The notes below the pieces were generated by a model, which was given only the letters and a program-made list of their open reading frames with translations, had not been told where the DNA came from and did no database searches. DNA of 52,575 nucleotides from Psychromonas sp. (lineage in GTDB: Bacteria > Pseudomonadota > Gammaproteobacteria > Enterobacterales > Psychromonadaceae). The stretch is from NCBI GenBank assembly GCA_013619145.1, contig JABXKR010000302.1, forward strand, positions 1 through 52,575, given 5' to 3'. Positions 41,262 through 52,575 of this stretch are shown here, piece by piece (the stretch's first letter is position 1; every line of letters begins with the position of its first letter). A program made the position numbers and the translations under genes.

Positions 41262-42005
41262 TCAATCTTTTTTCTTTTCACCAGCGAGTTCTGCAAGCAT
41301 TACTTCATCTAAAATGCTGATATATTTGCCTTTTACCGCAATCATCTCATTTTTTTGGAAGCGTCCTAAAAGACGACTAATTGTCTCAACGGTTAGGCCT
41401 AAATAGTTGCCAATATCACCACGAGTCATTGATAAACGAAACTCTCTAGGGGAGAAACCGCGCGTGGCAAAACGCATTGATAGATTATGGATAAAGGATG
41501 CGAGGCGCTCTTCTGCATTTTTCTTTGACAGCAGCAAAATCATATTTTGATCTCCAACAATTTCTGCGCTCATCAAACGTAAAATTTGTTGTCTCAGCTT
41601 CGGCATACTTGTCGAAAGATTATCAAGTGTATCGTAAGGAATTTCACAAATCATTGCCGTTTCAAGTGCTTGGGCAAAACTTGGGTGTGTTCCTGAGTTA
41701 ATACCATCAAAACCGACCAAATCACCTGCAAGATGAAAAGCGGTGATCTGTTCATCACCTTGTTCTGTGATTGTGTATGATTTAAGCGTGCCAGAGCGAA
41801 TGGCATAAAGACATTTCATCTCTTGCCCAGCTTTAAATATTTCCTGACCTTTTTGAATCGGTTTTTTACGCTCAATAATATTATCTAAACGATCTAATTC
41901 GGTTTCATTTAGAGAGTAAGGAATACATAACTGATTAATGCTACAGTCTTGGCAACGAATGGCACAACCACCCGTTTGAATACGATTTGTATTACTTTTT
42001 TCCAT
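41262..42005 (-). CDS. fnr: Oxygen-sensing transcription regulator FNR
   Basis: The 247-residue regulator has the [4Fe-4S] ligands in the N-terminal [16 protein letters not shown] (Cys18, Cys21 and Cys27 correspond to E. coli Cys20, 23 and 29) plus a central Cys in AMICEIPYD. The cyclic-nucleotide-like sensor domain and the helix-turn-helix with [12 protein letters not shown] follow; Glu and Arg in this helix read the TTGAT half-site. Without oxygen it dimerises and controls anaerobic and microaerobic genes such as ccoNOQP. A near-consensus FNR box lies 20 bases upstream of the start, which suggests autoregulation. Neighbours uspE and the cco cluster fit the usual fnr context. Confidence 0.97.
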
Positions 42006-42024
42006 AGTTCTTTTATTTTCCTTT

Positions 42025-42038
42025 TTGACTTAAATCAA
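42025..42038 (-). promoter_or_regulatory. FNR box before fnr
   Basis: TTGACTTAAATCAA matches TTGAT-N4-ATCAA at nine of ten fixed positions. It lies 20-33 bases upstream of the fnr ATG, close to where transcription should begin, a position that fits repression of fnr by its own product. Confidence 0.72.
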
Positions 42039-42172
42039 TATTAACACTAATTAAAGTCGCTTTGAACACTTTCCAATGATTTGTGTAGTTCTCCGGCATT
42101 TTACGGTTAAAATTGTGTGCTAAGCGGTAAATTATCTACAAAAGAGACCATCACAAATAAAATTATTTGTCA

Positions 42173-42856
42173 TTAATATAATTGAACGAGTGCGATATAA
42201 AAGGTGTGAATAGCAAAGGTTGCTAGCAGTAAGCCACTGCCATATCTAAAGTAGTGGTGGTTTAAATAATATTTTAGTTGTTGGCTAAGCGATCCGACGC
42301 TGAGCATGGCCGGCAGGGTGCCTAAACCAAATCCGAGCATAATAATAAAACCGCTGCTGGCACTGCCGCTGCTGGCGGCCCAGGATAATGTTGAATAAAC
42401 TAGCCCACAGGGTAACCAGCCCCATAAAAAACCTAAAGGGAAAGCGTATACAGGGTGTTTTAAGGGAATAAAAAGTTGCGCAATTGGTTTTATAAATTTC
42501 CAGATTAACTGACCCGCCTGCTCAAGTTTTAATAATCCCAACCAAATACGGGAAATATATAGTGCTAAGAGCAGCATTAAAATTGCCGCCAGCAAACGCA
42601 GATAAATTAATGCCTCTTTCCCGCCGAAAAAGAGTATCAGTGCGCTACTACTGCCTGCAAACAGAGCGCCTGCAATAGAGTAACTACTTACCCTTCCTAA
42701 GTTGTACAATAATAATGAGAGCAGTGAAGATAATTTACTTTGATCCGCTTTTACCGAAAAGGTGATCGCACTGGCAATTCCTGAGCACATACCTAAACAA
42801 TGCCCCGCTCCGAGTAAACCTATTAGCAGTGCTGCGATAAAATCATTGCTTAGCAT
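42173..42856 (-). CDS. TauE/SafE-like membrane protein of the cco cluster
   Basis: The 227-residue protein has about six transmembrane segments. It begins FIAALLIGLLGAGHCLGMCSGIASAI, a pattern (GxxHCxGMCGG) seen in membrane proteins next to ccoS, and repeats the feature with FPLGFLWGWLPCGLVY. Cys and His near membrane surfaces suggest metal handling, and homologues in this position are proposed to help copper delivery to the oxidase; that role is inference. Its start overlaps the ccoS stop by 14 bases, so translation is coupled. fnr lies downstream after 167 bases. Confidence 0.82.
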   Translation of the reverse strand: MLSNDFIAALLIGLLGAGHCLGMCSGIASAITFSVKADQSKLSSLLSLLLYNLGRVSSYSIAGALFAGSSSALILFFGGKEALIYLRLLAAILMLLLALYISRIWLGLLKLEQAGQLIWKFIKPIAQLFIPLKHPVYAFPLGFLWGWLPCGLVYSTLSWAASSGSASSGFIIMLGFGLGTLPAMLSVGSLSQQLKYYLNHHYFRYGSGLLLATFAIHTFYIALVQLY

Positions 42857-43067
42857 GATCAGTTACCGAATCTGCTTTTTCTGGAGTACTTTTCTGTGCA
42901 TTATTATTGTTTTCAGCGTCAGTTGCGGGCTCTTCATCGAATAAAATATTAATACCTTCTCTGTCTAAATCATCAAATTGATTTGATTTTACCGCCCAGA
43001 AAAAGACTATTACCGCGATTGTGACAAAGATCATTGCGATTGGAATTAACACATAAATGATACTCAT
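42843..43067 (-). CDS. ccoS: cbb3 oxidase maturation protein CcoS
   Basis: The 74-residue protein has one N-terminal membrane helix (about 4-27) followed by AVKSNQFDDLDREGINILFDEE, the CcoS signature, and an acidic, Asn-rich tail. CcoS is needed for heme and copper insertion into the cbb3 oxidase in Rhodobacter. It sits between ccoI (38 bases upstream) and the TauE-like gene (14-base overlap). The tail is longer than in minimal CcoS. Confidence 0.92.
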   Translation of the reverse strand: MSIIYVLIPIAMIFVTIAVIVFFWAVKSNQFDDLDREGINILFDEEPATDAENNNNAQKSTPEKADSVTDHAKQ

Positions 43068-43105
43068 TTTAGCAACCTTGTTAAATGATGAATAATAGAG
43101 CGCTT

Positions 43106-45499
43106 CTATTTTAATAATCGCAGTGAGTTACTAACAACGATCAGTGAACTGAAAGACATACCTATTACCGCAATATAAGGGGGAACGTGCCCCATAATGG
43201 CAAGCGGAACAATAATGAGATTATATCCGATTGCCCAGCCAAGATTTTGTTTAATAATAGCCGTAGTTTTTTGCGCTGTTTGCTTAAGTACTTTAAGTTT
43301 ATTTAAATCTTCCCCTAATAAAATAACATCTGCACTATTTTTGGCAATATCGCTGCCGCTTGCTAATGCAACAGAAACATGGGCGCCGGCTAAGACGGGG
43401 GCATCATTAATTCCATCACCGACCATTAACACTTTATCTTCAATTTGCAGTTGTTGTAGATGTCGAAGTTTACCTTCAGGTGTAACGCCTTTAATTAAAT
43501 GGTCGATTTTCAGTAAGTCACATACTTCTTCACTTTTAGCCGAAATATCACCCGTTAGCAGGGTGGTTTTGATTTTTTTAGTCGAGCAGTAGTTAACAAT
43601 AGCTGAAGCACTGTCTCGTAACTCATCGCCTAATTCAAAGGTTGCTAATAATTGATTATCTAGGGTCAGGCAAATGAGCAGCTCTTTACTGTCAATAGGC
43701 TTATCTATTGCACAAAACTGTGCGTGGCCTAGCTTTAACGTTTGCTGTTTATAATCACCCTGTAAACCTTGAGCGGGTATATTGGAAACATTATTTATGA
43801 TTATTGTTTTTTGTTGTAGTTTTTGAAACGCCAGTGAAATTGGATGTTCAGATACTTTTTCTAATTGTGACGCAAAATCAATACACTGCTGTTTTGAGTA
43901 ATCACCATAAACGGTTGTGTTAAGCAGTGAAAAATTGCCTTTGCTTAAAGTACCTGTTTTATCAAATACCATATGATTAATTTTATTAAGCGTTTCTAAT
44001 ACATGGTGCTGTTTAATTAGAATGCCTTGTTTATTAAGTTGTGCGGTAGCACAGGTTAATGCCGTGGGGGTTGCTAAAGAGAGAGCGCAAGGGCAGGTGG
44101 CAACTAATACGGAAAGGGTTATCCAAAATGCTTGAGCCGGTGCAATAACACTCCAACCTATATAAGTTAGTGATGCGACAATAAGCAAAGCGGCAACAAA
44201 ATAACGGGAGACGATATCGGCAACAATTTCGATGCGTGGTTTATTAAGTTGGGCACTATCCTGCAGATGAATAATATCTGCGATCAAAGTGTTGTCTGTG
44301 AGTTTTTCAACGCGAATTGTTAGCGGGCTGGTAATGTTAACCGTACCTGCAAAAACAGGATCATTTTTATCTTTTTTAACGGGCAGGTGTTCGCCGGTTA
44401 ACATTGACTCCTCAATATTACTTAACCCGTTGATAATAGTGCCATCAACGGGTAGTGTCTCGCCCGCTTTCACTAAAATAATCTCACCAATATTTAGTGT
44501 TTTTGCTGGAATTACGGATTGTAGCTGTGGTTTATTTATATCTTTAATTAAGGTTGCCATCGACGGTAACAGACGTAATAAATTGCTGCTAGTTTCCGAG
44601 GCTTTACGTCTTGCGCGCAGTTCTAATAATCTGCCAAGCAATAATAAAAAGGTAAACATGGAAACAGATTCAAAATATACCTCACCACGACCAACAACAG
44701 TGGCATAACCTGATGCACTGTAGGCTCCTAGCAGGGCAATTGAAATAGGAATATCCATACCTAAGGTTTTATTGCGAATATTGCGCCACGCATTGATATA
44801 AAAGGGTTGTGCGCTATAAAGTAATACTGGCGTTGCTAAAATAAAACTCACCCAACGGAAATAGTGGATAAACTCCTCTTCCATGCCGGAAAAAAAATCA
44901 GAATACAGGGCGATTGCAAACATCATAACTTGCATGGTCGCAAGTCCTGCAAGTCCTAAGCGTCGCAGATATGATTTTGCCTGCTGTGTATAAAAGGCTT
45001 CCTGTTTATTAACTTGAAAAGGGTAAGCCTTGTAACCTATCTTTTGGATCTCTTTTAAAATCAAACTTAGTTTGAGTTGTCGGTTATCCCACTTAATGAC
45101 GGCGCGATGCAGGGTGGTATTTACATTAATAAAAAGCAAACCAGGCATAAAACGAAGCTGTTTTTCGATTAACCAAGCACAAGCGGCACAGGTGATCCCC
45201 TCAACCGTCAGGGTTATTTCATTGCTATTTTCATTTTGTTGAACAAAATCTTCCTGGATCTGCTTGATATCATAATGGTCAAGTTGTTTTAGCTCCTCAG
45301 GAACTAACGCTGCCATTTTTTCTGCATTTTCGCTGCGGTGCGTATAATAGGAGGTTAAACCGCTATCAACGATAGTTTGCGCAACTGCCTCACAGCCAGG
45401 GCAGCACATGGTTTGAGATTGACCATTAATCGTTACCCGGTAGTGGCTATTTTCTGGATTAGGCTCCCCGCAATGAAAGCAATTTTTTTGCTCTGTCAT
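43106..45499 (-). CDS. ccoI: Copper-exporting P1B-type ATPase CcoI (FixI)
   Basis: The 797-residue copper pump delivers copper for cbb3 oxidase assembly. Features in order: an N-terminal zinc/copper-like Cys cluster (CFHCGE and CCPGCEAVA, residues about 6-40), a heavy-metal-associated domain with CAAC near 98-102, the transmembrane CPC motif (TCPCALSLATP near 470), the phosphorylation site DKTGTLSKG near 514 and GDGINDAP near 692. The start ATG shares its A with the stop of ccoH (TAATG), so translation is coupled. CcoI proteins are slower than CopA and serve assembly rather than detoxification; that distinction rests on the gene context. Confidence 0.94.
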   Translation of the reverse strand: MTEQKNCFHCGEPNPENSHYRVTINGQSQTMCCPGCEAVAQTIVDSGLTSYYTHRSENAEKMAALVPEELKQLDHYDIKQIQEDFVQQNENSNEITLTVEGITCAACAWLIEKQLRFMPGLLFINVNTTLHRAVIKWDNRQLKLSLILKEIQKIGYKAYPFQVNKQEAFYTQQAKSYLRRLGLAGLATMQVMMFAIALYSDFFSGMEEEFIHYFRWVSFILATPVLLYSAQPFYINAWRNIRNKTLGMDIPISIALLGAYSASGYATVVGRGEVYFESVSMFTFLLLLGRLLELRARRKASETSSNLLRLLPSMATLIKDINKPQLQSVIPAKTLNIGEIILVKAGETLPVDGTIINGLSNIEESMLTGEHLPVKKDKNDPVFAGTVNITSPLTIRVEKLTDNTLIADIIHLQDSAQLNKPRIEIVADIVSRYFVAALLIVASLTYIGWSVIAPAQAFWITLSVLVATCPCALSLATPTALTCATAQLNKQGILIKQHHVLETLNKINHMVFDKTGTLSKGNFSLLNTTVYGDYSKQQCIDFASQLEKVSEHPISLAFQKLQQKTIIINNVSNIPAQGLQGDYKQQTLKLGHAQFCAIDKPIDSKELLICLTLDNQLLATFELGDELRDSASAIVNYCSTKKIKTTLLTGDISAKSEEVCDLLKIDHLIKGVTPEGKLRHLQQLQIEDKVLMVGDGINDAPVLAGAHVSVALASGSDIAKNSADVILLGEDLNKLKVLKQTAQKTTAIIKQNLGWAIGYNLIIVPLAIMGHVPPYIAVIGMSFSSLIVVSNSLRLLK

Positions 45500-45975
45500 T
45501 ACAAATGAAAAGTGCTGGTCGGTAAGGTGACCGTTTTTTGTAAACGCCAGCTTTTATCAAAGGGTTCGATGCGCAGTTGCCATTTACCTGTAAGATCTGT
45601 ATCCGCATCAAAGTGAAAGTCGCCATTGCCATCAGCTGTAAGTAATAAAGAAATATCCCGATTGGCTAATGTAGAATGAAATAAAGAGAGGTTAATTGAA
45701 CTGTTATCCTTAACGCCGTTTAAGCTAATAATAAGTTCGTTATTAGTTTGTGTAACAAGCGCTTTAATATTGAGTTTTTGCGCATTCTTAAGCAGCGTTA
45801 AATCCCTGTTTATCGCCTTACCTTTTGCATAATAATCATCCACTACCATCTCTGGTTTATTGTTAGTGGCGATAATTACGGTAGTAATGCCTCCGACAAC
45901 AGCTATTAGAGGTAATATGATTAAAAACCAAGGCCAGAATTGTTTAAACCATACTTTTTTATTATTGTTTTTCAT
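45499..45975 (-). CDS. ccoH: FixH/CcoH family assembly protein
   Basis: The 158-residue protein has one N-terminal membrane helix (about 15-34, FLIILPLIAVVGGITTVIIAT), then VVDDYYAKGKAINRDLTLLKNA, the FixH pattern, and a periplasmic beta-sandwich domain ending GKWQLRIEPFDKSWRLQKTVTLP. CcoH binds the cbb3 complex and is needed for its stability. It begins the assembly operon ccoHIS after a terminator. In many genomes ccoG lies just before it; it is missing at this place. Confidence 0.88.
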   Translation of the reverse strand: MKNNNKKVWFKQFWPWFLIILPLIAVVGGITTVIIATNNKPEMVVDDYYAKGKAINRDLTLLKNAQKLNIKALVTQTNNELIISLNGVKDNSSINLSLFHSTLANRDISLLLTADGNGDFHFDADTDLTGKWQLRIEPFDKSWRLQKTVTLPTSTFHL

Positions 45976-46007
45976 AATAGCCTTATAAATGAATTAACTT
46001 AGCATAT

Positions 46008-46034
46008 AAAAAGCCTCGAAAACGAGGCTTTTTT
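46008..46034. terminator. Terminator between ccoP and ccoH
   Basis: AAAAAGCCTCG (46008-46018) and CGAGGCTTTTT (46023-46033) enclose AAAA. On the minus strand it ends the ccoNOQP transcript with a T-run, before the ccoHIS genes. Confidence 0.88.
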
Positions 46035-46071
46035 ATTAAATAAACTTAATACTTAGCGTTGTTAGCTATGC

Positions 46072-47031
46072 TTATTTCTCTTGTGAAAGGGAGTAAACAA
46101 ATGCCGCAATCAGGTGAACTTTATCTTCGCCCAGTACATCAGCCCAAGGCGGCATAACGCCATTACGGCCATTACGAATACTATCTTCAACTGCTTTGCG
46201 AGAACCGCCGTATAACCAAATTTTATCTGTTAGGTTTGGTGCGCCAAGCGCGTGAGAACCTTTTCCATCCGCGCCGTGACAAGCCGCGCACATAACAAAG
46301 CGCTCTTCACCTGCTTTTGCTTCAACGGCGTTAACACGTCGACCGCTTAGTTTAAGTACGTAAGTTGCAACTTCTTTAACACCTTGTTCACCTAAGATCT
46401 CTTTCCAAGCTAGCATTGCCCCCTGACGGCCGTGCATTATGCTCTCTTTAATATTTTGTGCTTCACCACCGTATAACCAATCGTTATCAGTCAGGTTCGG
46501 GAAGCCTTTACTGCCACGTGCATCTGATGCATGACACTGAGCGCAGTTTTGCAGAAATAAACGTTGACCTACTTTGACCGCTTCGGGATCTTTGGCGATT
46601 AGCGTGAGATCTTTGTAAACACCATTTTCATCATAAGCAAGCTGCTTAAATACTGCGCCATATTTTTCTTCTGCTGCATTCATTTCTCTTTGATATTGAG
46701 AATGTGAAGTCTCAGCAAGCGCCTGAGATTCTTCCAGTGACATGACACTCTGCTCTGAACTTGTCCAGTTAAGCAAGCCATTCCAGTTTGCTGTATAGCT
46801 TGGGAATGCAAAACTATATAGCAAACCAATCACTATGGTGAACCAAAATAGGCCCGTCCACCATTTTGGTAATGGGTTATTTAATTCTTGAATGCCGTCA
46901 AAACTATGCGGCATGGGTTTGCCTTCTTCCACGCCGGTATTATTTTTTGATGTTGCGTGAAGCAGTACTGCGCAACCAATAATAACGATTAGTGTGATCA
47001 CTGTGATCCATATTGTCCAAAAAATGCTCAT
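46072..47031 (-). CDS. ccoP: cbb3 cytochrome oxidase diheme subunit CcoP
   Basis: The 319-residue subunit has two membrane helices (about 5-25 and 57-78) and two c-type heme sites in the periplasmic part: CAQCH (163-167) and CAACH (248-252). Each is followed by a repeated motif with NLTDxxWLYGG and GRxGxMxxW, which supplies the Met ligand. It passes electrons to CcoO and CcoN. Its ATG overlaps the ccoQ stop (TAATG). The second membrane helix is the form found in gammaproteobacterial CcoP. Confidence 0.96.
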   Translation of the reverse strand: MSIFWTIWITVITLIVIIGCAVLLHATSKNNTGVEEGKPMPHSFDGIQELNNPLPKWWTGLFWFTIVIGLLYSFAFPSYTANWNGLLNWTSSEQSVMSLEESQALAETSHSQYQREMNAAEEKYGAVFKQLAYDENGVYKDLTLIAKDPEAVKVGQRLFLQNCAQCHASDARGSKGFPNLTDNDWLYGGEAQNIKESIMHGRQGAMLAWKEILGEQGVKEVATYVLKLSGRRVNAVEAKAGEERFVMCAACHGADGKGSHALGAPNLTDKIWLYGGSRKAVEDSIRNGRNGVMPPWADVLGEDKVHLIAAFVYSLSQEK

Positions 47032-47222
47032 TATTTTTTAGCTCCCGTATGTTTGCTGTCATTGCTTGCATACGTTGTTGAGTCTTGAGGTTCATCGAAA
47101 ATAGAATTGGCGATCTTCTCAAATGACTTTTTATGTTTTTTACTGTATGCCCATAAAATCAAAGCAACGAAAATAATAATTAAGAACAGCGTATACAGTC
47201 CATTAAATGTTGCGTAATCCAT
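47031..47222 (-). CDS. ccoQ: cbb3 oxidase small subunit CcoQ
   Basis: The 63-residue protein has one membrane helix (TLFLIIIFVALILWAYS) followed by KKHKKSFEKIANSIFDE, the usual basic turn and FD/E motif of CcoQ. I chose the ATG at 47220-47222 with GGAGG seven bases upstream; the longer reading would start before this ribosome-binding site. CcoQ stabilises the oxidase and is not catalytic. Confidence 0.92.
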   Translation of the reverse strand: MDYATFNGLYTLFLIIIFVALILWAYSKKHKKSFEKIANSIFDEPQDSTTYASNDSKHTGAKK

Positions 47223-47273
47223 AAAGCCTCCAGTAGATGGAATCAGCACTCAGTAACTGAGCACTGTGGTTAT

Positions 47274-47876
47274 TTATCTAAATGCGTGACCAAGTGACTG
47301 CAAATAAGCAATTAATGCCTGCATCTCAGTTTTTCCTGCAACAGCTGCTTTTGCACCTGAAATATCTTGATCCGTATACGGTACACCGAAGTTGTTTTTA
47401 AATATCTCCAATTTACGCGCCGTATCTTCACCTGTTAACCGGTTCTCGGCAAGCCATGGGAAGCCCGGCATATTGGATTGTGGTACCACATCTCTTGGAT
47501 TAAGCAGGTGCAGTTCATGCCAGGCATCGGAGTAACGTTGACCAACACGTGCCAGATCCGGACCTGTGCGTTTTGAACCCCATAAAAACGGATGTTCCCA
47601 AACACCTTCACCAGCGACACTGTAGTGACCGTAACGCTCGGTTTCAGCTCGGAAAGGACGAATCATCTGGCTGTGACATACACTACAACCTTCACGGATG
47701 TAAATATCACGACCTTCCATTTCCAATGCAGTATAGGGACGCAGCGTATCAACAGGCTCGTTTGTCTCTTTTTGGAAGAGCAATGGTGTTATTTGCGCTA
47801 AACCACCAAAGCTAATTGCAATGATGATAAAGATTGCCAGTAGACCAACATTCTTTTCAATAAATTCGTGCTTCAT
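47274..47876 (-). CDS. ccoO: cbb3 cytochrome oxidase monoheme subunit CcoO
   Basis: The 200-residue subunit has one N-terminal membrane helix (about 10-32) and the heme c site [15 protein letters not shown] (Cys64, Cys67, His68). Other family patterns: [44 protein letters not shown] (Met ligand) and the C-terminal [12 protein letters not shown]. It receives electrons from CcoP. The ATG has GGGAG seven bases upstream and follows ccoN by 15 bases. Confidence 0.96.
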
Positions 47877-47891
47877 TATTTAACTCCCTGA

Positions 47892-49322
47892 CTAACCAAG
47901 TTCTTGAGGCTTGATAGAGCCTTCTTTTGCGACAACTGTTTTGTATGTGTTGTAAGCCATTACAAACATACCAGATAAGAAGACTAAACCTCCGATGAAA
48001 CGGATAGTGTAGAACGGGTATGACTTCTCTAAGGACTCAACAAAAGTGTAAGTTAATGTTCCGTCATCGTTAACCGCACGCCACATCAGACCTTGCATTA
48101 CACCTGAAATCCACATCGCCACAATGTATAAAACCGTGCCTATTGTTGCTAACCAGAAATGCAGGTTAATCATGGCAACACTGTACATCCCTTTTTGATT
48201 AAATAAGCGTGGGACTAGGTGGTAAATTGCGCCAATAGAAACCATTGCAACCCAGCCTAATGCACCTGAATGTACATGACCAACTGTCCAGTCAGTGTAA
48301 TGAGACAGGGCATTTACTGTTTTTATTGCCATCATAGGACCTTCAAAGGTCGACATACCGTAGAAAGAGAGTGATACAACTAAGAAACGTAAAATAGGAT
48401 CCGTACGTAGTTTATGCCAAGCTCCCGATAACGTCATAATACCGTTGATCATGCCGCCCCAAGATGGCGCAAATAAAATCAATGACATAACCATACCTAA
48501 AGATTGTGCCCAATCGGGTAAGGCGGTGTAATGAAGGTGATGCGGGCCTGCCCAGATATAGACTGCGATTAGAGCCCAAAAATGGATAATAGATAAACGG
48601 TAAGAGTAAACAGGGCGTTCTGCTTGTTTTGGTACAAAGTAATACATCATCCCCAAGAAACCAGCGGTTAATAAGAAACCAACCGCGTTATGGCCATACC
48701 ACCACTGCACCATTGCATCGACAGCGCCAGAATAGACAGAGTAAGATTTCATGCTGCTCATTGAAACAGGAATGGCGAGGCTGTTGACAATATGCAAGAC
48801 AGCAACAGTCAAAATAAATGCCCCGAAGAACCAGTTTGCAACATAGATATGTGATGTTTTACGTATCGCTAATGTGCCGAAGAATACGACTGCATAGACT
48901 ACCCATACCGCAGTGATAAGCAGATCGATTGGCCATTCAAGTTCTGCATATTCTTTTGAAGTGGTATAACCTAAAGGCAGTGAAATAGCCGCAGAAAGAA
49001 TGACTAATTGCCAGCCCCAAAATACCACCGAAGCAAGAGAGCCGCCAAACAAACGAGTTTGACAGGTACGCTGCACCACGTAAAAAGAGGTTGCCATTAA
49101 TGCCGAAGTACCGAATGCAAAGATTACTGCATTAGTATGTAGCGGACGTAAACGGCTGTATGTTAACCAAGGCGTATCGAAGTTAAGTACGGGCCAGACC
49201 AGTTGAGCTGCGATTAGTACCCCGACAGTCATACCAACAATACCCCAGAATATGGTGGTAAGTGTAAACTGACGGACAACTTTATAGTTGTAGTCAGGTT
49301 GAATTGTAGTTGCGGTTGTCAT
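47892..49322 (-). CDS. ccoN: cbb3 cytochrome oxidase catalytic subunit CcoN
   Basis: The 476-residue subunit with about 12 membrane helices carries the low-spin heme b and the heme b3-CuB centre and reduces oxygen to water at low oxygen. Conserved His segments are visible: [25 protein letters not shown] (CuB and Tyr cross-link region), [11 protein letters not shown] and [15 protein letters not shown] chose the ATG at 49320-49322 (MTTATTIQ) because GGA lies nine bases upstream; an ATG six codons earlier has no ribosome-binding sequence. It begins the operon ccoNOQP. A possible FNR box lies 59-72 bases upstream. Confidence 0.96.
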
Positions 49323-49380
49323 TATTTTGATTCCATGCATTTATTTACAATGTACGTGTGTTATGACGTAATATAAGTAA

Positions 49381-49553: not shown

Positions 49554-50036
49554 ATGTTAACGAAAAGTAGAGTTGCGCTGTTGTTTATTATGCTGCTAAT
49601 TGTTCTAGCGCTAGTGGCATGGAGGACGGTCGATAACGTGCACGGCTCTCTGATAAATTCTGAACTCAACGCCAGTGAACAGTTAAAAGCTAATCTTGTC
49701 CGCTGCGATTATTTCAGTCCCTGTGAGTTTATTACCAAGCAGGGGACATTTTGGTTATCTGTTAATAATCCTCCTATCAAAGCTGAGCAGTGGATCGATT
49801 TTAATTTACAATCCGAATTGAAAACGTGGCGGGTAAAGGAAGCAAAAATTGTAGGAAAAAGTATGTTTATGGGACGTATTCCAGTTTTCTTTAAACCCAT
49901 AGATAAGGGGTTATTTACTGCCAAAACTCTGCTTGGAGCTTGCAGCACTTCTGAGATGATTTGGCAGTTACAAATATCGGTCGAAGTGAATGATATTACC
50001 GAAGTGCTGTTGTTTGATTTTGTGGTTCGCCATTAA
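49554..50036 (+). CDS. Membrane-anchored protein of unknown function, divergent from ccoN
   Basis: The 160-residue product has one N-terminal hydrophobic segment (about 7-24, ALLFIMLLIVLALVAW) and an extracytoplasmic domain with three cysteines: two close together in VRCDYFSPCEF and one later in LLGACSTSEM. The domain has a beta-sandwich look (WLSVNN, WIDFNLQS, WQLQISVEV). No family is recognised. Its place between the cbb3 oxidase and the bufferin operon, the Cys residues and a resemblance in layout to FixH-like proteins suggest a role in copper or oxidase assembly, but this is a guess. A long hairpin follows. Confidence 0.65.
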   Translation: MLTKSRVALLFIMLLIVLALVAWRTVDNVHGSLINSELNASEQLKANLVRCDYFSPCEFITKQGTFWLSVNNPPIKAEQWIDFNLQSELKTWRVKEAKIVGKSMFMGRIPVFFKPIDKGLFTAKTLLGACSTSEMIWQLQISVEVNDITEVLLFDFVVRH

Positions 50037-50046
50037 TGCAGTGGAT

Positions 50047-50078
50047 AAATTCTGCCTGAAATTATTCAGGCAGAATTT
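50047..50078. terminator. Bidirectional terminator between the unknown gene and doxX
   Basis: AAATTCTGCCTGAA (50047-50060) and TTCAGGCAGAATTT (50065-50078) are exact reverse complements with a 4-base loop, between converging genes. Confidence 0.85.
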
Positions 50079-50085
50079 GCATAAT

Positions 50086-50532
50086 TTATTTTATTAAAAA
50101 ACGTTTTTTCAGTAGCTGGTCAAGCGAGATTAGCCCCGCGCCCCAAACCACATTGATAAGAATCATTAATCCCCATAATTTGTGATCATAGAAACCGCCA
50201 TCCCAAAGTACGGGATATGAAATAACAGCCATTATATTGAAAACAAATAAAACAGCAGCCATGGGTCTTGTCAATAATCCGAATAATAGAAATATCGGGA
50301 TTATCAATTCAGCGGCGGTGCCTAAATATGCCGCCATTTCCCATGGCAGAAAGGGGACTTGGTACTCTTCTTCAAAAAGGTATAAGGTGCTATCCCAAGT
50401 GGTTATTTTCAAATAACCGGATTTAAAAAAGACACTCGCCACCCAAAAACGTGTAAATAACAGCAGAATAGGTATGAAGTAGCAGTGCATTTTTTGCACT
50501 GCTTGCTGATAAAGTTCGAGTAAAGCTTTCAT
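50086..50532 (-). CDS. DoxX family membrane protein of the bufferin operon
   Basis: The 148-residue protein has four membrane segments and the DoxX pattern: ILLLFTRFWVASVFFKSGYLKI, YLGTAAELIIPIFLLFGLLTRPMAAVLF and DHKLWGLMILINVVWGAG. DoxX-type proteins are common in bufferin and related operons and may act as a quinone-linked redox partner; the exact role is unknown. Its start overlaps the stop of the DUF2063 gene by 4 bases (ATGA), so it is translated as the fourth gene of the operon. Confidence 0.85.
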   Translation of the reverse strand: MKALLELYQQAVQKMHCYFIPILLLFTRFWVASVFFKSGYLKITTWDSTLYLFEEEYQVPFLPWEMAAYLGTAAELIIPIFLLFGLLTRPMAAVLFVFNIMAVISYPVLWDGGFYDHKLWGLMILINVVWGAGLISLDQLLKKRFLIK

Positions 50533-51281
50533 AAATCTTCCTTAATAGTAAATCCGTTGAGTAGATCTTTTTCCATTAATGCAGGTAAAAACTGATGTAA
50601 ATCATAAGGTTCTACTTGTCCTAAACATTGATGGTTGGAAATTTGTTGAACCAGTAAAAACTCCTCTCTGCTTAAGGTGATAAGTTCAATACTGAAATCG
50701 GCTTGTTTTTTTAAAGCCATATAACAAGGCGTGTTTAAGTCTGTTTCCTGTACTTTGTTGTCAATAATCATCTGATACAAATATTGGATATTTTGCTCAC
50801 TTGCAAAGAGATTAATTTGTGATGGAACTTGAAATGTCATTATTGCAAATTGTTCAGCTTGTACAGTTGCAAGCTTTTTAATATCTAGTCTCTGGGTTTG
50901 CAGTTGCGCATTGCTTGTTTGTTCTAATAACCATTCAAAACGAGCCATTTCAGCAATATATGGCAAACTCTTTAGCTGTTTTAGGTTTTGTAAAAAATCA
51001 CTAAAACCATTACCGTAGCTGATTATGTTATTTTCCTGTGGTGGTTGTTGTAAAATGAACTGCCGGGCTACGACATTAAAAAACTCTTCCCCCACTAGAG
51101 ATAAGGTATGCTGATAAGTAACTGCAAGCGCTTCTGTTACTCCCATTACAAAACTATTGCGGTAAACTTGTAGTAACTCATTGCTCGAGAATGCATCTTT
51201 TTCTTGAATTTCAGACTCAATCAAATCGTTTTTATATAACAGTGCTTCACTAAATTGCTGCTGCAGTTTATTAAGTTTCAT
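50529..51281 (-). CDS. DUF2063/HvfC-like partner protein (BufC-like)
   Basis: The 250-residue protein starts LNKLQQQFSEALLY and contains LQVYRNSFVMGVTEALAVTYQHTLSLVGEEFFNVVARQFILQQPP, the DUF2063 pattern. In bufferin and related MNIO systems this family binds the precursor and brings it to the MNIO enzyme. I chose the ATG at 51279-51281 with GGAGG ten bases upstream; it overlaps the end of the MNIO gene by 11 bases. A longer reading from 51338 would lie mostly inside that gene. Function follows from family and operon. Confidence 0.84.
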   Translation of the reverse strand: MKLNKLQQQFSEALLYKNDLIESEIQEKDAFSSNELLQVYRNSFVMGVTEALAVTYQHTLSLVGEEFFNVVARQFILQQPPQENNIISYGNGFSDFLQNLKQLKSLPYIAEMARFEWLLEQTSNAQLQTQRLDIKKLATVQAEQFAIMTFQVPSQINLFASEQNIQYLYQMIIDNKVQETDLNTPCYMALKKQADFSIELITLSREEFLLVQQISNHQCLGQVEPYDLHQFLPALMEKDLLNGFTIKEDL

Positions 51282-52128
51282 CAATACTGCCTCCATCAAT
51301 ATATTGCCTGATTCTTTTGGCTTTGTTGTGCTCCTCAATTAATGTTTCAAGTGGTGGGATATCTAAGTCCCACTCTATTAGTGTGATTGCATCTGTTTTT
51401 GTAGATTTTATATATTGACTATAAATATCCCAAACATCAGTGCTAACAAAGGTGCTGTGGGTATCAATTAAAATCGAATCATTATTAATAAGCTTTTTAG
51501 TAAAACCCGCTAAATGAATCTCTTGTACTGCTTGGTCATTTATAACATCAAGATATTTTTCAACTGAAAATTGATGATTAGTCGCACTGACATAAATATT
51601 ATTAAGATCGAGTAACAATCCACAACCTGTTTGTCTGGCTATTTCATTAATAAATTCAGGTTCGCTCATTTCACTGTTTTTATACTCTAGATAGGAAGAG
51701 GGGTTTTCGATAAGTATCTGCCTTTGTAAATGATCTTGAACTTGATTGACATTGTTTACAAAACAGGACATTGCATCTTTGGTGTAGGGAATCGGTAACA
51801 GGTCGTTAAAGAAATTGCCCTGCAGTGAGCACCAACTTAAATGATCAGAAACCAGTGCAGGTTGAAAGCGATCAACTAACTGCTTTAGGTTATTTAAGTG
51901 GCTTTTGCTGATCGGATCACTACTGCCAAGTGATAAGCCAATGCCGTGAAAGCTCATTGGGTAAAATTCAGCAATTTGTTGAAGATAAAAATGATTTTGA
52001 CTGTGTGGGTTAAAATAGTTTTCGCTGTGTATTTCTAAAAAGCCAACTTCAGGTAAAGAAGATAAAACATCTTGATAGTGGGGCGAACGTAATCCTATTC
52101 CAACTGTACCCTTATTCATTTTTTTCAC
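51271..52128 (-). CDS. DUF692 multinuclear non-heme iron oxidase (BufB-like)
   Basis: The 285-residue TIM-barrel enzyme has the MNIO (DUF692) signatures: GFLEIHSENYF, SFHGIGLSLGS (His61), SDHLSW (Asp95, His96), ILIENPSSY (Glu141), LLLDLNNIYVSA, EIHLAGF (His205), DTHST (Asp222, His224) and IEWDLDIP (Glu252). These supply iron ligands. MNIOs oxidise peptide cysteines; in bufferins they form thiooxazole-type rings that bind copper. The start is a GTG (52126-52128) with AGGTG upstream. It follows the precursor gene after a hairpin. The reaction on this precursor is inferred from the family. Confidence 0.9.
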   Translation of the reverse strand: MKKMNKGTVGIGLRSPHYQDVLSSLPEVGFLEIHSENYFNPHSQNHFYLQQIAEFYPMSFHGIGLSLGSSDPISKSHLNNLKQLVDRFQPALVSDHLSWCSLQGNFFNDLLPIPYTKDAMSCFVNNVNQVQDHLQRQILIENPSSYLEYKNSEMSEPEFINEIARQTGCGLLLDLNNIYVSATNHQFSVEKYLDVINDQAVQEIHLAGFTKKLINNDSILIDTHSTFVSTDVWDIYSQYIKSTKTDAITLIEWDLDIPPLETLIEEHNKAKRIRQYIDGGSIDET

Positions 52129-52156
52129 AAAAACACACCTTTTTAATTAAACCTGG

Positions 52157-52180
52157 AATTAGGGAGTAAACTCCCTAATT
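52157..52180 (-). terminator. Hairpin between the precursor and MNIO genes
   Basis: AATTAGGGAG (52157-52166) and CTCCCTAATT (52171-52180) pair perfectly with a 4-base loop, 12 bases after the precursor stop. On the minus strand it is followed by an AT-rich stretch with TTTAATT. It probably acts as a partial terminator or RNA stabiliser, giving more precursor than enzyme. Confidence 0.75.
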
Positions 52181-52192
52181 ACATAAAAAATT

Positions 52193-52465
52193 CTAAGACG
52201 CTTTGGGTGCTTTGGGCGTTAAACTACCCCCTGCTAATTTTTCACATAAACCTTTCGGTACAGCAAGAAAGGCATCACCCTGGTTATCAACTTTTGAAGT
52301 ACCAGCACATGAGCTTGTTTTTGTTGCGCAGTCATTTTGCCCTGCAGCTGCAACGCCATAACATTTCTCTTTACTTGCAGCCATTGCTGGTGTTGAAACA
52401 AGCGCGCTACCCACGGCAATAAGTGTTGAAACAGTTGCAGCTAAAGCAAGATTTGATTTTTTCAT
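52193..52465 (-). CDS. DUF2282 bufferin-type precursor peptide (BufA-like)
   Basis: The 90-residue precursor has a signal peptide (1-29, cleavage near AMA/A) and a core with four cysteines: Cys35 ([14 protein letters not shown]), Cys46, Cys53 ([16 protein letters not shown]) and Cys74 ([13 protein letters not shown]). This is the DUF2282 pattern of bufferins, peptides whose central cysteines are oxidised by an MNIO enzyme and which bind copper in the periplasm. I chose the ATG at 52463-52465 with AGGA upstream; a longer reading from 52498 has no ribosome-binding site and would add 11 residues before the signal peptide. The enzymes are the next genes. Confidence 0.9.
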
Positions 52466-52575
52466 AATAGATGTCCTGTATATAATAAAATTAAGCAAGC
52501 ACGGTTTGTGCGTTTAGTTGTTGTATTCAATAATATAAACCGAGGAATCAGCAAAAAAATTTCAAATTTTTTTAA

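Follow-up and report, generated by a model that had tools for sequence, protein, structure and literature searches.

A complete Buf1 bufferin operon, with its precursor, maturase, partner and DoxX genes all on the minus strand, lies beside the cbb3 oxidase (cco) genes of a Psychromonas genome, and we consider that it probably provides stress-induced buffering of periplasmic copper from an ECF promoter of its own, its place next to cco being gene order inherited within Psychromonas, without co-transcription. The evidence that carries this reading is gene content, a promoter motif and its conservation, the single clade formed by the MNIO maturases, insulation of the operon from the oxidase genes, and the presence or absence of the operon at the site in related genomes. 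The window, that is, the whole stretch of DNA analysed, is contig C68 of genome G000 at its full length of 52,575 bases, and the contig ends 110 bases upstream of bufA.

Under the favoured reading, BufB (the MNIO) and BufC would convert Cys46 and Cys53 of the precursor to thiooxazoles in the cytoplasm, after which the modified peptide would be exported by the Sec route and would bind excess copper in the periplasm, with DoxX as a putative accessory membrane protein. Transcription would start at a dedicated ECF promoter, TGAAAT-N16-CGGT, once a DUF3379 membrane anti-sigma factor had freed its sigma factor upon envelope metal stress.

The bufferin operon

That the window holds a bufferin-type RiPP operon, as the original prediction had it, is borne out by matches of the four products to PF10048, PF05114, PF09836 and PF07681 (Table 1) and by the MNIO, which passes the NCBIfam MNIO_BufB cut-off (368 against 310 bits) and falls under that for HvfB. 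The gene order and the overlaps between the last three genes are likewise as predicted, with 11 bases shared by bufB and bufC and 4 by bufC and doxX. The four cysteines claimed for the precursor are present (Cys35, Cys46, Cys53 and Cys74) and are invariant in an alignment of 22 relatives; the claimed signal peptide was recognised by eye, the N-terminus resembling a Sec-type signal with KK, a hydrophobic stretch and an end in AMA followed by AS. The precursor misses the NCBIfam BufA2 equivalog cut-off (33 bits against 60), so is not filed under BufA2, and has no match in the PDB, whereas the MNIO aligns with solved DUF692 and MbnB structure chains. A single-protein scan of named genomes returned one locus, in P. 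aquimarina, whose MNIO is 76% identical, in keeping with assignment to Psychromonas.

The part of PMC12452194 that deals with Buf1 bufferins describes clusters with the same core gene set as found here, and peptides in which the two central cysteines are modified and the outer two are joined in a disulphide. The bufferin class is already known, and this operon is another example of the Buf1 type.

Table 1. Features of the operon, its promoter and the neighbouring oxidase genes
Feature	Position in window	Strand	Evidence or remark
bufA, DUF2282/Buf1 bufferin precursor, 90 aa	52193..52465	-	PF10048 DUF2282, E 1.2e-24
bufB, MNIO (DUF692) maturase	51271..52128	-	PF05114, E 6.2e-103; NF050167 (NCBIfam MNIO_BufB), 368 bits
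bufC, DUF2063 partner protein	50529..51281	-	PF09836, E 2.2e-20; start at ATG 51281
doxX, DoxX-family membrane protein	50086..50532	-	PF07681, E 1.8e-16
ECF-type promoter TGAAAT-N16-CGGT	52534..52564	-	-35 element starts 99 bases before bufA start
Strong terminator between convergent doxX and g160	50046..50079		15-pair stem; fold z-score -6.2; 0/200 shuffles as good
g160, one-helix-anchored, probably periplasmic protein, MxMG...C....MxW	49554..50036	+	CrdA-like predicted model; cco locus
g160 homologues in other genomes			loci L073, L074, L080, L084, L085, L088, L203, L204, L206, L214
cbb3 oxidase cluster: ccoNOQP, ccoH/FixH, ccoI, ccoS, DsbD_2 protein, FNR-type regulator	41262..49340	-	neighbour, outside operon
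ccoN	47892-49340	-	TIGR00780, 767 bits

A probable dedicated promoter before bufA

Comparison of the stretches upstream of bufA brought out the element TGAAATTTT-N13-CGGTWTMTA. A strict pattern, TGAAATTT-N14-CGGTWTNTA, was first drawn from these stretches and then searched genome-wide: 16 of the 24 Psychromonas genomes have a single site and none has two, its reversed control occurs in 0/24, and in the genome of the window the bufA promoter is the only match. Thirteen of the sites precede a bufA of the type found in the window (type 1), at a distance of 97-188 bases in twelve genomes and about 580 bases in G013; the fourteenth genome with such a gene, G017, has no strict site. Transfer RNA genes, hinted at by tRNA-like frames, were considered as the content of the longer interval in G013 and rejected, as they lie beyond the ECF pair; G013 has five consecutive tRNA-Asn genes next to its ECF/bufferin region (L106:12145-12774).

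The strict site is kept before bufA where the operon lies away from cco (G016) and where the ECF pair described below is found elsewhere (G000, G004 and G022). It is also present in G008, G019 and G020 at the empty place, with no operon behind it, and a search there for remnants of bufA or the MNIO gave nothing better than chance. In these three genomes (L099, L113 and L115, between the ECF gene and g160) a block of 50 bases, about 250 bases past the promoter, is conserved as well; promoter and block may be a relic or an uncharacterised small RNA, and the stretch from G019 has no match in Rfam.

A looser pattern is too unspecific alone, with 35 matches in 60 genomes and 30 when reversed as a control; 18 of the 35 are the strict sites plus the bufA genes of G032 and G034. 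The core TGAAA[TA]-N16-[AC]GGT occurs within 250 bases in 13 of the 22 stretches from Psychromonas (the second-type bufA of G019 accounts for one) and outside the genus in 3 of 17 (G032, G034 and G325); every other spacer length from 11 to 21 yields 0 or 1 match. This spacing comparison covered 37 of 42 loci, which supplied 39 stretches; G045, G104, G213 and G232 (twice), where the bufA core pattern was unmatched, were left out. Scored for the full motif against 500 shuffles, the stretches before bufA in three genomes of other families stand out to differing degrees (G032, 17/18, 0/500 shuffles as good; G056, 15/18, 0/500; G034, 14/18, 8/500), and G058, G043, G029 and G325 score no better than shuffled sequence.

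A candidate sigma factor and its anti-sigma factor

An ECF sigma/DUF3379 gene pair is divergent from bufA in nine of the eleven intact operons on the cco side, with one extra frame between in G009. In the genome of the window the pair is on another contig, C102, and in G004 and G022 it is similarly found elsewhere, not next to bufA; the DUF3379 frame of G005 contains a stop. The anti-sigma family (PF11859 DUF3379, E 1.8e-69) has one membrane helix, followed by Cys159 and His168 in 25/25 rows of an alignment of frames of 200 aa or more, from which G005 was left out. A homologous ECF/anti-sigma pair (53% and 29% identity) is directly divergent from bufA in G325, a genome of another order, where TGAAAT-N16-AGGT precedes bufA. 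The DUF3379-linked ECF sigma factor is the likely reader of the bufA promoter.

Alternatively, a different sigma factor would read the promoter, with the pair present there as a bystander. G016 (350 contigs) has operon and promoter with no DUF3379 match, so that another sigma factor may act there; the ECF gene has no strong copy of the bufA motif upstream that would suggest self-regulation; the genome of the window encodes two weaker ECF homologues; and G001, G014 and G018 retain the pair without the operon. Nevertheless, the pair stands divergent next to bufA in two orders, and a DUF3379 match is found in the genomes other than G016 that have a good motif; we regard this alternative as rather unlikely, albeit the one to be taken most seriously. 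The term DUF3379 was not found in the literature searched, so a function for the family would be useful. A specific promoter together with a sigma/anti-sigma family makes the bufferin-inducing signal in marine Gammaproteobacteria testable, and we offer the ECF/DUF3379 promoter, along with g160 (below), as leads to new, testable parts of the locus.

Relation to known systems

The closest parallel is the Buf1 operon CC3254-3257 of Caulobacter, for which PMC3511200 gives the same order of precursor, MNIO, DUF2063 and DoxX genes, ECF sigma/anti-sigma genes (sigF-nrsF, CC3253-3252) beside the operon, and a SigF promoter of the same hexamer-N16-tetramer form, GTAACC-N16-CGAA as against TGAAAT-N16-CGGT here. 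The same paper places the bufferin operons among the few targets of SigF, notes a conserved cysteine in NrsF and, in a section heading, states that metal resistance does not depend on sigF or on the bufferin-operon genes tested, CC2906/CC3255, a result that counts against the favoured reading. The systems differ in that the Psychromonas operon lies beside cco, with the ECF pair of the same genome on another contig, and in the anti-sigma factor: NrsF (DUF1109) has six helices, DUF3379 proteins have one, and the latter may at most work alike and are not members of the NrsF family. By analogy, SigF-NrsF offers a model for control of bufA by the ECF/DUF3379 pair.

A further alternative is another ligand, in which case the peptide would handle some other metal or an oxidant (gold, chromate or cadmium) and not mainly copper. 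According to PMC3511200, chromium and cadmium elicit a response of the Caulobacter SigF regulon, of which bufferins are part, and gig operons are named for gold in PMC12452194; yet the latter paper also reports that the Caulobacter Buf1 bufferin studied binds copper and aids growth in excess copper, and a main role outside copper seems to us improbable.

A second relative is the hvf system of Haemophilus, whose Oxazolin/EGKCG captophorins are, according to PMC13097082, 5-thiooxazole copper peptides made with an MNIO, a partner and a DoxX-like protein, as would be the case here. The precursor of the present operon is a DUF2282 protein without the EGKCG repeats, and its MNIO, unlike an HvfB, lies on the BufB side of the two cut-offs.

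Insulation from the oxidase genes

The original prediction set the operon one gene away from ccoNOQP-ccoHIS, a cluster with its own copper ATPase, and both statements are correct: g160 is the sole gene between the operon and ccoN, and ccoN is followed by ccoOQP, a FixH-like ccoH, a ccoI-type copper P-ATPase, ccoS, a DsbD_2 protein and an FNR-type regulator (ccoI was assigned from a copper P-type ATPase model, FixH and DsbD_2 by their own matches, and ccoO, ccoQ, ccoP, ccoS and the FNR-type gene by eye). This is physical closeness only, as the terminator and a convergent gene insulate the two units. Because g160 is convergent with doxX, with the terminator between them, and divergent from ccoN, transcription of the operon is unlikely to run on into cco. 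An FNR-type site was sought as a shared switch, and the best matches before ccoN and bufA are only at shuffle level.

Adjacency within and outside Psychromonas

The comparison took in 24 Psychromonas genomes, that of the window included, and another 36 from the same order, with inspection of the junctions. Of the 24, 13 carry a type-1 operon whose MNIO is intact, and in eleven of these (G000, G004, G005, G006, G007, G009, G011, G013, G015, G021 and G023) it abuts cco, with doxX followed by g160 and ccoN; G016 and G017 carry it elsewhere, away from the cco site. At the same cco-side site the MNIO frame is interrupted in G022, and G002 retains DUF2063, the remnant of an MNIO and a short doxX next to what resembles, by eye, a transposase frame. 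The cco site is resolved and operon-free in six genomes (G001, G003, G008, G010, G019 and G020). Contigs end near cco in G012, G016 and G017, and G014 and G018 have no ccoN match. The order amt, anti-sigma, ECF, [buf], g160, cco, FNR-type, usp is syntenic whether or not the operon is there.

In the MNIO tree the 13 type-1 sequences form one clade (support 95/97). Its nearest neighbours are G034+G058 and G043, joined to it in an unresolved fork, and second-type MNIOs fall outside it. One supported pair (G015+G023) is common to the MNIO and ccoN trees, most forks of which are unresolved, and no supported forks conflict; in the ccoN tree the empty-site genomes fall in three places (G001; G003+G010; G008+G019+G020). 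Since the MNIOs are one clade, we read the adjacency as a single inherited arrangement and not as evidence of coupling. The operon beside cco is best read, with the direction of change inferred from these trees and sites, as one ancestral arrangement that was later lost several times, a reading helped by the orphan promoter at the empty sites of G008, G019 and G020.

Continuity in relatives, the test named in the original prediction, applies to most of the Psychromonas genomes with an intact operon and, in the genomes checked, ends at the genus boundary. Among the 36 non-genus genomes, 14 exceed the cut-offs for both DUF2282 and ccoN, and in 0/14 do the two lie within 40 kb on one contig, the nearest approach being about 44 kb in G024. 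In a class-wide sample of 281 genomes, DUF2282 was found in 71, ccoN (E up to 1e-150) in 155 and both in 42, among the matches listed; here too among the matches listed, and the genome of the window aside, DUF2282 is close to ccoN in one genome, the distant G293, as a broken frame of 51 codons 3.7 kb away. The DUF2282 and ccoN lists were joined by genome by eye at both levels. For eight of the 42 genomes, those whose ccoN position lay outside the matches listed, the surroundings of DUF2282 were inspected: 10 stretches reaching about 9 kb to either side, some of them cut short where the contig stops, contained no ccoN. Outside Psychromonas, among the genomes checked, no intact operon adjoins cco.

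These observations bear on the possibility that assembly of the adjacent cbb3 oxidase draws on copper supplied or buffered by the bufferin, with selection preserving the linkage. The eleven adjacent operons, the broken frame of G293 and the position of g160, a CrdA-like gene linked to ccoN, between operon and oxidase would all fit, but all type-1 MNIOs are one clade, cco is kept without the operon at six resolved sites, the operon has decayed in place or lies elsewhere in four further genomes, the wider gene order is conserved anyway, and the 14 relatives outside the genus with both gene sets lack the adjacency; we therefore think such coupling improbable. Of the two roles first proposed, protection from copper is the likely one, and supply to the oxidase, against which clade, losses and insulation all speak, is unsupported. 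DUF692, cbb3 and copper were not found together in the literature searched.

Several further features of these loci were seen in passing. A second, divergent bufferin operon is present elsewhere in G008, G012, G013, G019 and G020, with parts in G002; genes for an AraC/cupin regulator, a YHS-domain protein and a thioredoxin-like protein stand in front of it (L093, L100, L105, L107 and L116), and bufA is in tandem in G008 and G020. In G005 and G021 a CAP-domain (PF00188) gene, its product secreted as judged by eye, lies between the MNIO and DUF2063 genes (L096:8695-9423, L117:5153-5878). The broken bufA frame of G293 (L190:13350-13451) is near a divergent ccoI-ccoN; on a second contig of that genome (L191), the tail of a copper-ATPase-like frame precedes a bufferin operon, which is followed by ECF-like and formylglycine-enzyme-like genes (named by eye).

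A candidate copper protein of the cco locus

Of the 20 non-genus genomes with enough sequence upstream of ccoN (G059 was left out, its contig ending too soon), 10, members of other families among them, have a g160 homologue with the motif M-x-M-G...C-x4-M-x-W in the upstream region, divergent from ccoN; of the other ten, G043 has a homologue without the motif, and none was found in nine. By this comparison g160 belongs to the cco side of the junction. It has no Pfam family and, by sequence, no match in the PDB. Its predicted model is a beta sandwich on a helix (pLDDT 86), and in VIA-align the top match to this model is Helicobacter pylori CrdA with silver (97 residues, Z 11.2, rmsd 2.1), with the copper proteins FetP, P19 and PmoD also listed, amid unrelated sandwiches at Z 8-10; Foldseek gave weak, mixed matches, with CrdA not among the first 50. 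The apparent likeness to CrdA is one of predicted fold: the two share 13% identity, CrdA has no cysteine and a Met-rich MMXEMPGM region, and g160 has MxMG, Cys130, a membrane helix and linkage to cco. CrdA is a periplasmic copper protein in the part of PMC9182242 that describes it.

From its motif and model, g160 can be read as a candidate Cu(I) protein of the cco locus, and it is a better candidate than the bufferin for supplying copper to the oxidase. Copper delivery to the cbb3 oxidase is only partly understood, and the g160 family provides a concrete candidate for the route. It would be a long shot to take the ECF/DUF3379 pair, the bufferin operon, g160 and cco as one periplasmic copper locus, in which g160 would hand Cu(I) to cbb3, the bufferin, controlled by a metal-sensing ECF system of its own, would set the level of free copper on which g160 draws, and DUF3379 anti-sigma factors would be a new class of envelope copper sensor through Cys159 and His168. 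In the two genomes with no ccoN match, G014 and G018 (L155 and L156), g160 lies beside the FNR-type gene with the ECF pair in order, the cco genes being missing from between them.
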